From assembly GCA_020832235.1 (NCBI GenBank), contig JAFIEZ010000006.1, forward strand, positions 62,001-126,000: a stretch of DNA of 64,000 nt, in the 5' to 3' direction. The position numbers and the translations under genes are program-made. Below the pieces are notes generated by a model, which saw only the letters and a list, made by a program, of their open reading frames with translations, had not been told where the DNA came from and ran no database searches. Every line of letters starts with the position of its first letter. The first letter of the stretch is position 1. Shown one piece after another: positions 20,973 to 47,205 of the stretch. This DNA is from Bacteroidota bacterium (GTDB lineage: Bacteria; Bacteroidota; Rhodothermia; Balneolales; HLUCCA01).

Positions 20973-21611
20973 TCAAACCCTTTTTATTACAAGAACATAT
21001 TTACCAGCAAAAAAAGAATCCTTCTCAACTGCTGATATATCGTAAGATGTTATTTCAAAGCTTTCATCAATATTTTCCAACTCGTCTACATAATCTGATC
21101 CTTTTAAAAGAACCATATAATCATATTTCCAAGATTTTGTCAGTTCAATCAGATCCCCTAGCTTAAATGCGTGCTTACTTACTAATATGCTCCGCGTACC
21201 GGGTGTATGATCTCCTATAGAACGATGAACACAACGAGTGTTTTTTAACCCCAGGTCTCTCTTAATCGCATCTATTGCCAATATTTTTTTCTGCACTACA
21301 TCAACCAATACAAACCTTCTCTCAGGGTTTATAATTGCAAGTGGGATTCCTGGCAACCCGCCACCAGTACCTGCGTCTACAATCTCCTCTATGTCACTAT
21401 TTATGAATGAAGCAATATATAGTGAATGCTTGATGTGATTTATCAAATCACTGGTTGTAGCATTTCTACTTATTAGGTTTACTTTTTTATTCCACCAGAT
21501 TAGCTTATCGGCATAGAGCTTGAACCTATCTCGATTAGCTTCGTAGATAGACGCAACCTCGTCGAATGTTTCACGTGAAACATTCTGTCTTATGACTTTT
21601 GCTTTAGACAT
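20973..21611 (-). CDS. rsmG: 16S rRNA (guanine-527-N7)-methyltransferase
   Basis: RsmG (GidB) methylates G527 of 16S rRNA, and its loss causes low-level streptomycin resistance in several species. The 212-residue product has the SAM loop DAGTGGGLPGIPLAI at residues 79-93 and the typical KLIWWNKKVNLISR block. Residues 10-16 (NVSRETF) are encoded by a perfect parS site, an arrangement seen in other bacteria where the protein tolerates this sequence. The gene follows mnmG after 165 bp that hold two more parS sites. Confidence 0.96.
   Translation of the reverse strand: MSKAKVIRQNVSRETFDEVASIYEANRDRFKLYADKLIWWNKKVNLISRNATTSDLINHIKHSLYIASFINSDIEEIVDAGTGGGLPGIPLAIINPERRFVLVDVVQKKILAIDAIKRDLGLKNTRCVHRSIGDHTPGTRSILVSKHAFKLGDLIELTKSWKYDYMVLLKGSDYVDELENIDESFEITSYDISAVEKDSFFAGKYVLVIKRV
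21567..21582. other. parS site 1 (inside rsmG)
   Basis: It is a perfect 16-bp palindrome, TGTTTCACGTGAAACA, identical to the consensus ParB/Spo0J-binding parS. It encodes residues 10-16 of RsmG in frame. Confidence 0.93.
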
Positions 21612-21656
21612 ATAACAACTCTTTTAAAAATAACCGATTTTTGCAGGCACCCAATA

Positions 21657-21672
21657 TGTTTCACGTGAAACA
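21657..21672. other. parS site 2 (mnmG-rsmG intergenic)
   Basis: It is a second identical TGTTTCACGTGAAACA palindrome, 90 bp centre to centre from site 1 and 46 bp upstream of the rsmG start. Confidence 0.94.
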
Positions 21673-21726
21673 TATATAATACAAAATAATATATGAGAGA
21701 AATTATGTCATAAACTATGGCACAAA

Positions 21727-21773
21727 AAAAGCAGTCCCGTGAATGTTTCACGTGAAACAGTATCGCGACTGAG
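21727..21773 (-). terminator. terminator-like hairpin after mnmG with parS in its loop
   Basis: On the minus strand CAGTC pairs with GACTG, followed by C and a T-run of seven. The interior is almost entirely parS site 3, which itself can fold as an 8-bp stem. Termination is plausible but may be partial, because rsmG lies downstream on the same strand. Confidence 0.55.
21744..21759. other. parS site 3 (in the mnmG 3' hairpin)
   Basis: It is a third identical TGTTTCACGTGAAACA, 87 bp from site 2, and lies 17 bases beyond the mnmG stop codon. The three near-even spacings form a compact centromere-like cluster. Confidence 0.94.
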
Positions 21774-37017: not shown

Positions 37018-38082
37018 TTACAACTCCAATTTAAGCTGCCTGCTACCGTCTCTTGACAAATCCAGATTGGAAACAGATATCCCAAGCAGTCTTACTTTTC
37101 TTTGCCCGGCTTCGGTAAGGGGTAGTAGATTACAAGCCGTTTGGTGTAAAGTGGCTGCATCAGAAACATCATCCGGCAATGTTAAACTGCGTGTAGCTAT
37201 TTCAAAGTTATCGTAGCGCACTTTAAGCGTTATGGTTTTCCCTGCGGTTCGTGCGCGCCCGAGCCTTTGCTCCACAGTTTGAGCAATTTCATTGAGTCGA
37301 TTATGAATTTCATCAAGGGCGTGTATGTCTTCTGAATACGTATTCTCTGCTCCAACCGACTTTCTCACTCGATTAGCCTGAACTTCCCGGTCGTCAACTC
37401 CTCTTGCAATGCGATAATAGAAATGTCCGGACTTTCCAAAACTACGAACCAATTCTACCTCTGATCGTTCTCTGAGGTCAGCCCCATTCGTAATGCCAAG
37501 TTCCAGCATTCTTTTTTCTGTAGCCGAACCAACACCATAGAACTTGCCGATTGGCAACTGTGCTATAAATGCTTCTGCCTTATCGGGGGTAATTACTGTG
37601 ATGCCCGCAGGTTTTTTATAACCGGAGGCTACCTTCGCCAGAAATTTATTAGGTGCAACGCCAGCCGAGCAGCTAAGCTTAACTTCATCGAACACCCGCT
37701 TTTTTATTTCACGGGCAATGAGGGTAGCGGATGGGTTTCCTGTTTTCGACTCCGTAACATCAAGGTAGGCCTCATCCAGTGAGAGAGGCTCAATCAGATC
37801 GGTAAACTCATAAAAAATGGACCGAACTTTTAGAGAAACCTCCTTATACACATCGAAACGAGGTTTTACGAAAATTGCATCCGGACAAAGTCTATAGGCC
37901 TGAGAGGTGGGCATGGCTGAGTGTACGCCAAATGCACGTGCTTCGTAGCTGCAGGTTGCCACAACACCCCTGCTTTGCGGGTTACCTCCCACAATAACAG
38001 GTTTACCTCGCCAATCGGGATTGTCGCGCTGCTCTACCGATGCATAGAATGCATCCATATCAATGTGTATAATTTTGCGCAT
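37018..38082 (-). CDS. dinB: DNA polymerase IV
   Basis: This Y-family translesion polymerase has 354 residues from the ATG at 38082. That start gives MRKIIHIDMDAFYASVEQRD with the metal-binding Asp8, and SLDEAYLDVT places Asp103 and Glu104 exactly at E. coli DinB numbering. The open frame extends 25 codons upstream, but that part is not polymerase-like. The helix-hairpin-helix (FYGVGSATEKRMLELGI) and little-finger domains follow. The C-terminus lacks a clear beta-clamp motif, although LKLEL is close. A 10-bp palindrome abuts the start codon. Confidence 0.95.
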   Translation of the reverse strand: MRKIIHIDMDAFYASVEQRDNPDWRGKPVIVGGNPQSRGVVATCSYEARAFGVHSAMPTSQAYRLCPDAIFVKPRFDVYKEVSLKVRSIFYEFTDLIEPLSLDEAYLDVTESKTGNPSATLIAREIKKRVFDEVKLSCSAGVAPNKFLAKVASGYKKPAGITVITPDKAEAFIAQLPIGKFYGVGSATEKRMLELGITNGADLRERSEVELVRSFGKSGHFYYRIARGVDDREVQANRVRKSVGAENTYSEDIHALDEIHNRLNEIAQTVEQRLGRARTAGKTITLKVRYDNFEIATRSLTLPDDVSDAATLHQTACNLLPLTEAGQRKVRLLGISVSNLDLSRDGSRQLKLEL

Positions 38083-38092
38083 ACTGTACAGT
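38083..38092. promoter_or_regulatory. palindrome at the dinB start, possible SOS operator
   Basis: ACTGTACAGT is a perfect 10-bp palindrome directly upstream of the dinB ATG. It contains CTGT and ACAG half-sites like those of proteobacterial LexA boxes, but without the 8-base spacer. The LexA site of this phylum is not known to me. The only support is position, next to a gene that is often SOS-regulated. Confidence 0.25.
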
Positions 38093-38174
38093 CCGGAATA
38101 AAATACTGCACATATAATACACATATTTACTCGAGATGTAAACATGTGGAAAAACAACGTCAGAATGAGGTTAT

Positions 38175-38726
38175 TTATCTATTTTGTAACCAGTGCATTG
38201 CCCTCAAAAGACAGATAACTGTTTTACCATCATTAATAGACCCTTGGTGCACCATTTCAATGGCCTCCCTAAACGGAATACGAACGGGTTCAACGAATTC
38301 GTCAATATCGGCATTGCTATTGGTAAGCCTCAATTCAGTAGCTGTATATATGTGAATTACTTCATCTGAATACCCAATTCCTGGATAAAAATGGCCTATA
38401 TAATGCAATTTTCCAGCATGTACACCGGTTTCTTCATGCAATTCTCGTTCAGCAGTACTATCTGGATTTTCTCCGGCATCAATTTTCCCGGCAGGTACTT
38501 CCCAAAATAGCTGTCTCACCGGGTACCTGTACTGACGCAGAAGCATGATATCTCCATTCTCAAAAAATGGTACTACAGCGCATGCGCCCGGGTGTTTAAT
38601 CCACTCTCTAACTGATGTTTGATTATCAGGTAACAGAACCTGGTCTCTGTTCACATGCAACAATGCGCCCGAAAAAACCTTCTCTGATGATAGTTCTTTT
38701 TCTATGAGTGTATGAGGATTTTTCAT
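38175..38726 (-). CDS. NUDIX hydrolase, ADP-ribose pyrophosphatase-like
   Basis: The 183-residue product has an exact Nudix box, GKIDAGE followed after seven residues by RELHEETGV, at about 98-120. The upstream block MLLRQYRYPVRQLFWEVPAG is typical of ADP-ribose and nucleotide-sugar pyrophosphatases (NudF/YffH type). It would hydrolyse ADP-ribose or a related X-linked nucleoside diphosphate. It is transcribed in the same direction as dinB, about 90 bp upstream of it. Confidence 0.92.
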   Translation of the reverse strand: MKNPHTLIEKELSSEKVFSGALLHVNRDQVLLPDNQTSVREWIKHPGACAVVPFFENGDIMLLRQYRYPVRQLFWEVPAGKIDAGENPDSTAERELHEETGVHAGKLHYIGHFYPGIGYSDEVIHIYTATELRLTNSNADIDEFVEPVRIPFREAIEMVHQGSINDGKTVICLLRAMHWLQNR

Positions 38727-44340: not shown

Positions 44341-45240
44341 TTAAAAACAAGAAAGTATGGCAGGTGTGACACCCGTCAGGTCGTGTATATCTGCAAACTT
44401 TCCGGCTTTAGGACCAGCCGCAAATAAAGGCACATTATTAACCGTATGTGATTTTACACTGAGGTCTTCTATATTTCCGTGATCGCTGCTTATCACTACG
44501 GTATGTTTTTGTCCGCTGCGCTGATTTTCGTCCAGAAATGCGGTAATAAATCCATCCACCCTCTCCAGCGCCCGCACCGCATCCTGCATATCCCGGGCGT
44601 GACCGGCCTTGTCGGTTAAATAATACTCCATCAACACCACATCGTATCGGTCCAGCGCATGCATCACGCGCGAGGCCGCATCCTCAAACGTGATAGCTGG
44701 AATATCCAATTTCAGCATGGTTTGCCAATAATCTTGCAGGATTTCGGCCGTGATGGCCTCCCCATTTCTAACCTCATCCAGCGAATTTAACCGAACCCCG
44801 GCGCTGCGCGTCATGAGCGTAGCACAGCTCCAGCGATTCAATTTCGTAGCCCGATCAAAGAAGATCTTCGGAAAAGCATTCATAAAATAGGGCTGTAATC
44901 CGGCGGACTGGGCCTGGTGAAACAGACTCTGCTCCTGCAGCAAAGGCTTGATTCCCGAGTGCGGAAACGGTCCGAAATGCTTGCCAATCATCGCAGAAGC
45001 ATTCTCACCCGAGAACAGCGCGGCCTGACCTGTGCCACTTTGTGGCAATCCATCTACACCCAGGCAGGCATCGATCGACTTAAAAAGTACATCATCAACC
45101 TGACTTCCTTTTGCATCACGGGTGAGGAGCTCGCCGCCCGTTAACCGGCTGAAACCCGGAAACTCATGCTCCGAAAACGGATTATCACGGGATGCCTCTC
45201 CGAGTCCGATACCATCTATGAACAGAAACAATACCCCCAT
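44341..45240 (-). CDS. alkaline-phosphatase-superfamily metalloenzyme, phosphomutase-like
   Basis: The 299-residue product has the metal-binding pattern of the phosphopentomutase / cofactor-independent phosphoglycerate mutase family. Asp9 is in FLFIDGIGLGE, the Thr/Ser region is GLPQSGTGQAALFSGENA, and SSDHGNIEDLSVKSHTVNNVPL supplies the second Asp, His and His. It lacks the insertion domain of full phosphoglycerate mutases (about 510 residues), so substrate and reaction are unknown. Its ATG overlaps the dtd stop (TGATG), so the two are translated together. Confidence 0.78.
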   Translation of the reverse strand: MGVLFLFIDGIGLGEASRDNPFSEHEFPGFSRLTGGELLTRDAKGSQVDDVLFKSIDACLGVDGLPQSGTGQAALFSGENASAMIGKHFGPFPHSGIKPLLQEQSLFHQAQSAGLQPYFMNAFPKIFFDRATKLNRWSCATLMTRSAGVRLNSLDEVRNGEAITAEILQDYWQTMLKLDIPAITFEDAASRVMHALDRYDVVLMEYYLTDKAGHARDMQDAVRALERVDGFITAFLDENQRSGQKHTVVISSDHGNIEDLSVKSHTVNNVPLFAAGPKAGKFADIHDLTGVTPAILSCF

Positions 45241-45680
45241 CAGCGCTCCAGAATGATGGTCACGGGACCGTCATTAACGAGCGAAACCTCCATCATCGCA
45301 CCGAATTCACCCGATTCCACCGGCAAATTTCCATTAACGCGCAGGTAATCGAGCATCGATTCGTATAGCGGAATGGCCACTTCGGGACGGGCCGATTCAA
45401 TAAAACTCGGACGTGTACCCTTGCGCGCATCCCCATACAACGTAAACTGCGAAACCACGAGCAGCGACCCGCCCACATCCTGCACCGATCGGTTCATTTT
45501 ACCCTCATCATCGTTGAAAATGCGCAGTTTAAGCAGTTTATCGCACATCCAGTGCATCTTCTCTTCGGTATCGCTTGTATGAAATCCGGCCAGGACCAGC
45601 AAGCCCTGACCTATCTCGCCAACAACCTTTCCATCGACGGTAACTGACGCTTTGGAGACTCTTTGAACAACAGTTCGCAT
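45240..45680 (-). CDS. dtd: D-aminoacyl-tRNA deacylase
   Basis: Dtd removes D-amino acids, and glycine from mischarged tRNA-Ala. The 146-residue product starts at the ATG at 45680 with MRTVVQRVSKASVTVDGKVV, matching the family. The open frame reaches 45752, but that extension is not Dtd-like. LLVLAGF, SLLVVSQFTLYGD (the active-site block) and the Gly-cisPro type motif near the end (NDGPVTI) are seen. It is the first gene left of the putative origin. Confidence 0.95.
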   Translation of the reverse strand: MRTVVQRVSKASVTVDGKVVGEIGQGLLVLAGFHTSDTEEKMHWMCDKLLKLRIFNDDEGKMNRSVQDVGGSLLVVSQFTLYGDARKGTRPSFIESARPEVAIPLYESMLDYLRVNGNLPVESGEFGAMMEVSLVNDGPVTIILER

Positions 45681-46200
45681 GTAGATAACTATGTGTATAA
45701 GTGGTAAATGTGTGTGGGAAAAATGTGCGTAAAAAGGAAAATCAAAAAACAAATTTAGTTATACAAAGTCATCCACAGAAAAGTCGGAGTTGTTAACGGT
45801 GAATCGGGATAACTTCCAATGTGAATTACTTTTCCACAAAATAACATGTGTTATATGTGCATATGTTGACAACTTTGCAAACCGAGCCCCTAAGGTATTG
45901 AAATTATACAAAGCGGTTATCCACATAATCATGCACAATTCATAAACATATCCACAACTCAGAGCTGACAAAAAGGTTGTCCACATATCCACACGCACTA
46001 CTAATAAGAAGAAAACTTTAAAAAAAATGTTCTATTGTTATAAACCCGTGTGGAAAAGTATTGGAAAGGAAGTCCTTATGCGCATGGTATGTTGAAACGG
46101 GATGTTGTATTTTTTTAGGGTTGATGATTACAACAACGCAAACCTCCCCACTGTTTCCTCGAATACGAAATTTCCGATTCCATTTAAACATCTCAGCTGA
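45681..46200. other. oriC: putative chromosomal replication origin (DnaA-box cluster)
   Basis: This 520-bp region lies between divergent dtd and purM and has no credible gene. Exact TTATNCACA boxes are at 45692-45700 (minus) and 45917-45925 (plus). Matches with one mismatch are at 45724 (minus), 45769, 45830, 45856 (minus), 45929, 45948, 45977, 45985 and 46048 (minus). After the tight box group at 45948-45993 comes CTACTAATA (45998-46006), whose bottom strand read 3' to 5' is GAT-GAT-TAT, like a DnaA-trio. An A-rich run follows (46004-46030). dnaA itself is not in the window. The function is inferred from sequence only. Confidence 0.7.
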
Positions 46201-47205
46201 ATGAAAAAGCCTATCACGTACAAAGATTCCGGAGTTGATGTAAAAGCCGGCGAAGAGCTGGTCAATTCCATCAAATCCATCGTTAAAGAGACCCATACCG
46301 GGGCCGTTTTAAGCAATATTGGCGGATTCGGAGGACTTTTTCGTCCGGACTTCACCTCCATGAAAGATCCGGTTCTGGTAAGCAGCGTTGATGGCGTTGG
46401 AACCAAGCTCATCGTAGCATTCAAAGCCGGAAAGTACGACACCGTGGGACAAGACCTGGTTAACCATTGCGTAAACGATATTGCGGTGTGCGGAGCGGAG
46501 CCCCTCTTTTTTCTGGATTATTTCTCCACCGGTAAGCTCGATCAGTCCATCGCCTTTGATGTAATCAAAGGATTCACCGTTGCCTGCAAAGAAAACGGAT
46601 GTGCCCTGGTGGGAGGTGAAACCGCCGAAATGCCTGATATTTACAAGGATGGGGAATTCGATCTGGCCGGTACTATTGTCGGAGCTGTGGACCGAGATCA
46701 GATTGTGGATGGAAGCAAGGTTCAAAAAGGCGATTTGTTATTCGGGCTTCCAAGCACAGGACTACACACCAATGGATATTCCCTCGCTAGGAAAGTCCTA
46801 TTCAGCGAATTTGATATCAACGACAAACCCGAAGTACTGAACGGAATTTCCATCGGTGAGTCCCTCCTACAGGTGCATAAATCGTACCTCGCCGAAATCC
46901 GAGAGCTTAAAAAAATGGAAGGTGTACACGCGTTTTCGCACATTACCGGAGGTGGCATTGAAGGAAATACCAAACGTGTACTTCCTGAAGGACTCAAACT
47001 GGATGTAGATTACACCGCCTGGAATCGTCCGGCCATTTTCGATCTTATTCAAAAAACCGGTAATGTTCCCGAAGAAGACATGCGCTTGTCGTTCAATCTC
47101 GGTGTTGGACTCGTGATCATCGCCGCACCTCACATGATTGAAGAATTGGCAATCTGGGCCAGCAAACGCGAAACCCCGTTATTTATCATAGGAGAAGTCG
47201 TCTGA
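46201..47205 (+). CDS. purM: phosphoribosylformylglycinamidine cyclo-ligase
   Basis: PurM (AIR synthetase) closes the imidazole ring of purines using ATP. The 334-residue product has the glycine-rich ATP-binding loop near the start (NIGGFGGLF), SSVDGVGTKLIVAF, HCVNDIAVCGAEPLFFLDYF, the signature LVGGETAEMPDIY, LPSTGLHTNGYSLARK and HITGGGIEGN. All blocks are present and length is normal. It lies directly right of the DnaA-box region. Its stop codon overlaps the start of the next small gene. Confidence 0.97.
   Translation: MKKPITYKDSGVDVKAGEELVNSIKSIVKETHTGAVLSNIGGFGGLFRPDFTSMKDPVLVSSVDGVGTKLIVAFKAGKYDTVGQDLVNHCVNDIAVCGAEPLFFLDYFSTGKLDQSIAFDVIKGFTVACKENGCALVGGETAEMPDIYKDGEFDLAGTIVGAVDRDQIVDGSKVQKGDLLFGLPSTGLHTNGYSLARKVLFSEFDINDKPEVLNGISIGESLLQVHKSYLAEIRELKKMEGVHAFSHITGGGIEGNTKRVLPEGLKLDVDYTAWNRPAIFDLIQKTGNVPEEDMRLSFNLGVGLVIIAAPHMIEELAIWASKRETPLFIIGEVV

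Follow-up and report, generated by a model that had tools for sequence, protein, structure and literature searches.

The Region between dtd and purM

The window, that is, the whole stretch of 64,000 nucleotides which was analysed, corresponds to bases 62001–126000 of contig C2 (297,076 bp) in a genome of 3.38 Mb and 20 contigs. The nearest named relatives of its purM gene are found in Balneolota-type bacteria. An intergenic region in this window is bordered on the left by dtd, encoding D-aminoacyl-tRNA deacylase, which occupies 45240..45680 on the minus strand with its ATG at 45680 (Pfam PF02580, E 1.9e-62), and on the right by purM, encoding AIR synthase, which runs from its ATG at 46201 to 47205 on the plus strand (PF00586 and PF02769). 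An earlier note on this DNA had named the two as divergent genes around the region, and the Pfam domains together with the start codons established both identities and the opposite strands. The same note had placed parS sites, mnmG-rsmG, and scpA in the neighbourhood. Three perfect parS sites of 16 bp each were indeed found on the plus strand at 21567, 21657, and 21744 (span 21567..21759), about 90 bp apart and 24 kb from the putative origin, two of them between rsmG and mnmG and one inside rsmG at its 5' end; the genes rsmG, mnmG, and scpA were all recognized by Pfam. The mnmG (gidA) gene lies 22 kb away from the cluster of DnaA boxes described below. Genes named by eye as gyrB and gyrA are located 1–6 kb to the left of the parS group.

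DnaA Boxes, Trios, and AT-Rich Stretch

A scan for DnaA boxes, allowing up to one mismatch to TTATNCACA, yielded 16 boxes between 45680 and 46084 (405 bp), 15 of which start inside 45681–46200. Two boxes are exact, at 45692 on the minus and at 45917 on the plus strand, and 14 carry one mismatch, so that the earlier count of two exact and about nine one-mismatch boxes was right for the former and too low for the latter. The array opens with an inverted pair assigned to the minus strand (45680–45688 and the exact box 45692–45700, 12 bp apart), followed by middle boxes of mixed strand at 45724 (minus), 45759 and 45769 (plus), 45820 (minus), 45830 (plus), and 45856 (minus), spanning 45724..45864. 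The boxes that follow up to 45993 are all on the plus strand: a one-mismatch box at 45904..45912, a direct pair starting 12 bp apart at 45917 (exact) and 45929 (45917..45937), a further one-mismatch box at 45948..45956, and a pair of overlapping boxes, TTGTCCACATATCCACA, starting 8 bp apart (45977–45985 and 45985–45993). This overlapping pair is the anchor of the putative unwinding module, the direct pair having offsets of -60 and -48 from it. An inverted box on the minus strand at 46049..46057 (TGTGGAAAA on the plus strand, offset +72) closes the core, and the last box, with one mismatch, is found at 46076..46084 on the plus strand.

In a first-order Markov simulation of 520 bp based on the local 1 kb (200 runs) the mean was 0.58 boxes and the maximum 3, as compared to 15 observed. 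Over the whole window 76 boxes were counted versus a chance mean of 73.8; as this total is at chance level, the signal consists in the clustering. The densest 400 bp of contig C2 (297 kb) contain 15 boxes and are located here, the runner-up having 5, so the set claimed to be the densest of the window is the densest of the entire contig. The 16 boxes in 405 bp, set against the simulated maximum of 3 in 520 bp, form an intergenic DnaA-box cluster of the kind looked for in an oriC. A smaller group of two exact and three one-mismatch boxes is present at 37844–38359 of the window, around the start of an open reading frame resembling DNA polymerase IV and of a neighbour gene (by eye), which is possibly a case of DnaA-linked regulation.

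Four bases past the overlapping boxes three DnaA-trios, CTACTAATA, are found at 45998..46006 on the plus strand (3'-GAT GAT TAT-5' on the other strand), and these are followed by an AT-rich stretch at 46007..46048, a probable duplex unwinding element. The 50 bp starting at 45996 are 80% AT, which is in the top 0.23% of the window. Both the DnaA-trio-like motif after the right-hand boxes and the A-rich run past it had been noted, and they are borne out by motif and composition; judged from this composition, the run would be the AT-rich unwinding element expected beside the boxes of an oriC. The sequence CTACTA within 22 bp downstream of a box was seen at none of the 284 boxes of C2 outside the cluster.

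In the basal unwinding system (BUS), DnaA bound to boxes extends onto the trio strand and opens AT-rich DNA. The corresponding search rule asks for a DnaA box and, across a spacer no longer than 16 bp, three or more trios in which the central base is A (NAN) (PMC8287927). When checked by eye, the box at 45977–45985 is followed at 12 bp by CTACTAATA with exactly three trios, and this distance, from the upstream box end at 45985 to the first trio at 45998, is within the box-to-trio spacer peak of 10–13 bp (PMC8287927). The window shares with the BUS of the Bacillus subtilis oriC the boxes, the short spacer, the trios with a middle A on the DnaA-bound strand, and the adjoining AT-rich DNA. Unlike in B. 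subtilis, the boxes of the pair share one base, no more than three trios conform to the rule, and dnaA is not adjacent.

Conservation in the Balneolales

The earlier note had also proposed a comparison with related genomes, and this revealed that locus and core are kept throughout the order. In all 24 Balneolales-type loci read, the window included, the cluster is enclosed by dtd and purM in divergent orientation, dtd being truncated in L101, where the locus ends. In 13 of the 24 (L024, L102, L103, L105–L111, and L113–L115) the cluster and purM are separated by a small gene which resembles YfiT/DinB by eye and is absent in the window, and in these dtd still adjoins the cluster. This bears on the possibility that the boxes mediate transcriptional regulation of dtd and/or purM by DnaA and have no origin function, which would fit a cluster between two divergent genes. 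In addition to the 13 loci in which another gene separates the cluster from purM, the 16 boxes, the unwinding module, and the skew minimum described below exceed what regulation would need, so that this explanation retains next to no probability.

Box clusters near purM were examined in two sets of loci. The first consisted of 30 loci among 116 genomes with a match, namely, the own locus, 17 of the same order, and 12 others (10 of the same class and two other); all 17 same-order genomes have 5–14 boxes per 400 bp near purM, as compared to 0–3 in the 12 loci outside the order. In the second set, of which 49 of 80 loci were examined, all six Balneolota-type loci (one of them titled only Bacteroidetes) have 7–13 boxes, and the 43 others have at most 3 in the 700 bp upstream of purM.

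The common order of the core is a direct box pair, about 47 bp, the overlapping pair, about 4 bp, CTACTA-like DnaA-trios, an AT-rich run, and an inverted box. Allowing one mismatch and a shift of 1 bp, boxes occur in the 24 loci at -60 in 15, at -48 in 20, and at the anchor itself in 22, whereas the second box of the overlapping pair (+8) is kept with at most one mismatch in just 8. With a tolerance of 1 bp the inverted box is at +70 in 17 of the 24 loci and at +71 in 14. Among spacings below 40 bp between boxes on the same strand, the 12 bp of inverted pairs is commonest (16 pairs), followed by direct pairs at 12 bp (12) and at 8 bp (10). In the alignment the CTA after the overlapping pair is invariant (24/24) and the full CTACTA is present in 14 loci. 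A spacer of 4 bp was obtained in 20 of the 24, partly by construction because the anchor had been fitted with spacers of 2–8 allowed.

A profile of 150 core positions, R1, was built with the window in the training set; its E-values, like those of the other profiles, are rough. In the own genome R1 gave a single strong match (E 1.4e-17), the next non-overlapping one having an E of 0.196, and a profile built without the window still matched the window with an E of 3.9e-13 (next 0.85, on contigs C2 and C3). Among 128 genomes of the order R1 matched 109; in 104 of these purM is on the contig of the match, in three it is on another contig, and two gave no purM match. In 103 of the 104 the core precedes purM by 0–2330 bp and shares its orientation, and only G196 deviates, a doubtful match with an E of 0.0066 and the wrong orientation. 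Eighteen of the 109 matching genomes had been used in training, and 85 of the other 91 have the core upstream of purM in the same orientation; since these 91 may include the six named training loci (and do include G147, the genome of both L024 and G118), the safe figure is 79 of 85. Nineteen genomes had no match to R1, and in 17 of them purM was not matched at 1e-60 either; the origin stretch is therefore probably missing from those assemblies. The core is thus found as one strong match in its own genome, in 109 of 128 genomes of the order, and almost always upstream of purM, as a single-copy, conserved oriC would be.

Box or iteron arrays are also known from plasmid origins, and this would speak for the region being such an origin, brought in by an integrated plasmid or mobile element. 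The position between conserved housekeeping genes throughout the order and the single copy in the own genome speak against this, and no gene for a replication protein was seen by eye among the open reading frames neighbouring the cluster; we therefore give a mobile origin virtually no weight.

GC Skew and the Location of dnaA

GC skew was computed on C2 and C3, two of the 20 unordered contigs, both as raw skew and at third codon positions, the latter being less driven by gene direction. The third-position minimum of C2 is found at an open reading frame starting at 109,791, less than 2 kb to the right of the cluster (contig positions 107,680–108,084). The cumulative raw skew of C2 has a flat floor at about 72–108 kb and then rises, its lowest point being at 86,813, 21 kb to the left of the cluster. 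The skew minimum anticipated at this locus was recovered on C2 by the third-position measure, the raw one being flat over this area.

The sole match to dnaA in the genome is at 220,895 of contig C3, which agrees with the earlier statement that dnaA is outside the window. The encoded DnaA has three Pfam domains (N-terminal, ATPase, and box-binding), and a homologue of the helicase loader DciA is also present in the genome. The dnaA gene (L018:817-2259, G000:C3) is flanked by folK and prmC, and no dnaN was seen by eye among the open reading frames of the 8 kb around it. Another genome (G258:C1, G085) has two long open frames that each match the C-terminal family of DnaA. The raw skew of C3 is lowest at 6.9 kb and highest at 185 kb and is therefore falling at dnaA; the third-position skew declines steeply to a low point at 276 kb, 55 kb from dnaA and close to the end of the contig, where it is deeper than the minimum of C2. 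At dnaA on C3 neither measure has a minimum.

In three relatives with one-contig genomes the skew was determined in sampled 20-kb stretches (G065, n=31; G112, n=29; G118, CP051242.1, n=20), which were placed more densely near purM and so gave the lowest point more chances to fall in that area. After circular detrending the raw minima were at 985 kb in G065, 271 kb in G112, and 290 kb in G118, with the cluster at 955, 270, and 320 kb, respectively, all within 30 kb. The minimum of G065 had been at 1.41 Mb with the first 20 stretches and came to 985 kb once 11 more were added. Without detrending G065 agrees, and the raw minima of G112 and G118 are at the wrap-around end of the series, away from purM. 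Detrended third-position minima agree in G065 (956 kb) and G118 (318 kb) and disagree in G112 (3.56 Mb), where genes on the plus and minus strands are often opposite in sign and the third-position measure seems to track gene direction. The cluster is thus at or near a skew minimum, as an oriC should be, by the third-position skew of its own contig (less than 2 kb off) and by the detrended raw skew of the three relatives (within 30 kb). In these relatives dnaA is at 1,301 kb (G065), 1.4 kb (G112), and 3,618 kb (G118), about 346, 269, and 449 kb from the locus.

The densest 400 bp of C3, just upstream of dnaA, contain six DnaA boxes, which could serve autoregulation, and this upstream region matches the core profile weakly and partially (E 0.23); the best 400 bp at the dnaA loci of six relatives contain 2–4. 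On the relatives' detrended skew, the skew of C2 and C3, and the few boxes at the relatives' dnaA, an origin at dnaA was rejected.

The sites datA and DARS of Escherichia coli titrate and reactivate DnaA, respectively, and clusters of DnaA boxes away from oriC are known from other bacteria as well. The cluster between dtd and purM might in the same way titrate or reactivate DnaA with initiation occurring at dnaA, the more so as dnaA is located elsewhere and has up to six boxes in 400 bp upstream. The detrended raw minima of the three relatives at or near the cluster and not at dnaA, the third-position minimum of C2 at the cluster with none at dnaA on C3, the low box numbers at the dnaA loci of six relatives, and the weak core match upstream of the own dnaA argue against such a role, for which trios and an AT-rich run would moreover be superfluous, and it is considered very unlikely.

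Related Bacteria outside the Order

With a threshold of E <= 0.01, R1 matched 90 of 96 members of the order in a sample of the class, and 85 of 99 genomes outside it. These latter matches, presumably in Rhodothermales, are weaker, ranging from 9.2e-14 for the best to about 0.01, and the weakest may be due to chance. Ten of the 85 loci, picked among the stronger matches, were read (L257–L266). CTACTA is present on one strand in seven of them and in variants in three; pgi is found within the 10-kb locus in eight, and comEC-like and nusB-like genes also in eight; these gene names were verified with Pfam for two pgi genes and for one each of comEC and nusB. Like the core between dtd and purM these loci are matched by R1, and the genes near most of them are pgi, comEC-like, and nusB-like genes instead of dtd and purM. 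In G030, a genome outside the order sampled in ten stretches, the skew changes sign at 2.44–2.60 Mb, about 50–200 kb from the R1 match at 2.394 Mb, a weak sign in favour of an origin there. The origin core seems to be common to the class and sited elsewhere outside the order.

A Probable Origin of Replication apart from dnaA

The box cluster, the third-position skew minimum, and the order-wide conservation of locus and core support the candidate chromosomal origin put forward in the earlier note. Positions 45680–46084 of the window, with a functional span of about 45680–46200, are in all probability the chromosomal oriC with a canonical basal unwinding module, as far as can be judged from the sequence. 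DnaA made from the distant dnaA gene would load onto the boxes, and a DnaA filament starting from the pair at 45977–45993 would extend on the trio strand and open the AT-rich DNA at about 46000–46048. The array on the left and the inverted box that closes the core would help to build or to limit this filament. DnaB helicase would be loaded next, probably with DciA, two forks would leave in both directions, and ParB at the three nearby parS sites would segregate the new origins.

With the own dnaA on another contig and dnaA about 269–449 kb off in the three one-contig relatives, the origin is not of the dnaA-adjacent type. In this it is like the oriC of E. coli, which is separated from dnaA (PMC8287927). 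A gidA-mioC origin site is named for Yersinia pestis and E. coli (PMC10225481), and unlike in origins of that type the flanking genes here are dtd and purM, with mnmG (gidA) being the gene found 22 kb off. The trio module is clear in this origin as compared to the BUS score of E. coli, which is called relatively weak (PMC8287927). Judging by titles and abstract openings, no study of this origin was found in the literature naming this group; DoriC may already have predictions for the group.

What is of interest in this origin is the near-fixed layout throughout an order and the locus, which apparently changed from one order to another. It may be that the Balneolales have one origin blueprint with near-fixed box spacings which is lastingly apart from dnaA, and that at the split of the orders the module was transferred as a whole from one conserved locus to another, with its internal geometry kept and, elsewhere in the class, the core now found near pgi; to this account we assign an even chance of being correct. 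A whole bacterial order gains a located origin, which is useful for coverage-based estimates of growth rate and for the orientation of genomes, a case for the latter being G112, the sequence of which begins near dnaA, about 269 kb from the origin locus. The near-fixed spacing across many genera offers, in addition, a natural collection in which to test how the geometry of the boxes directs unwinding.
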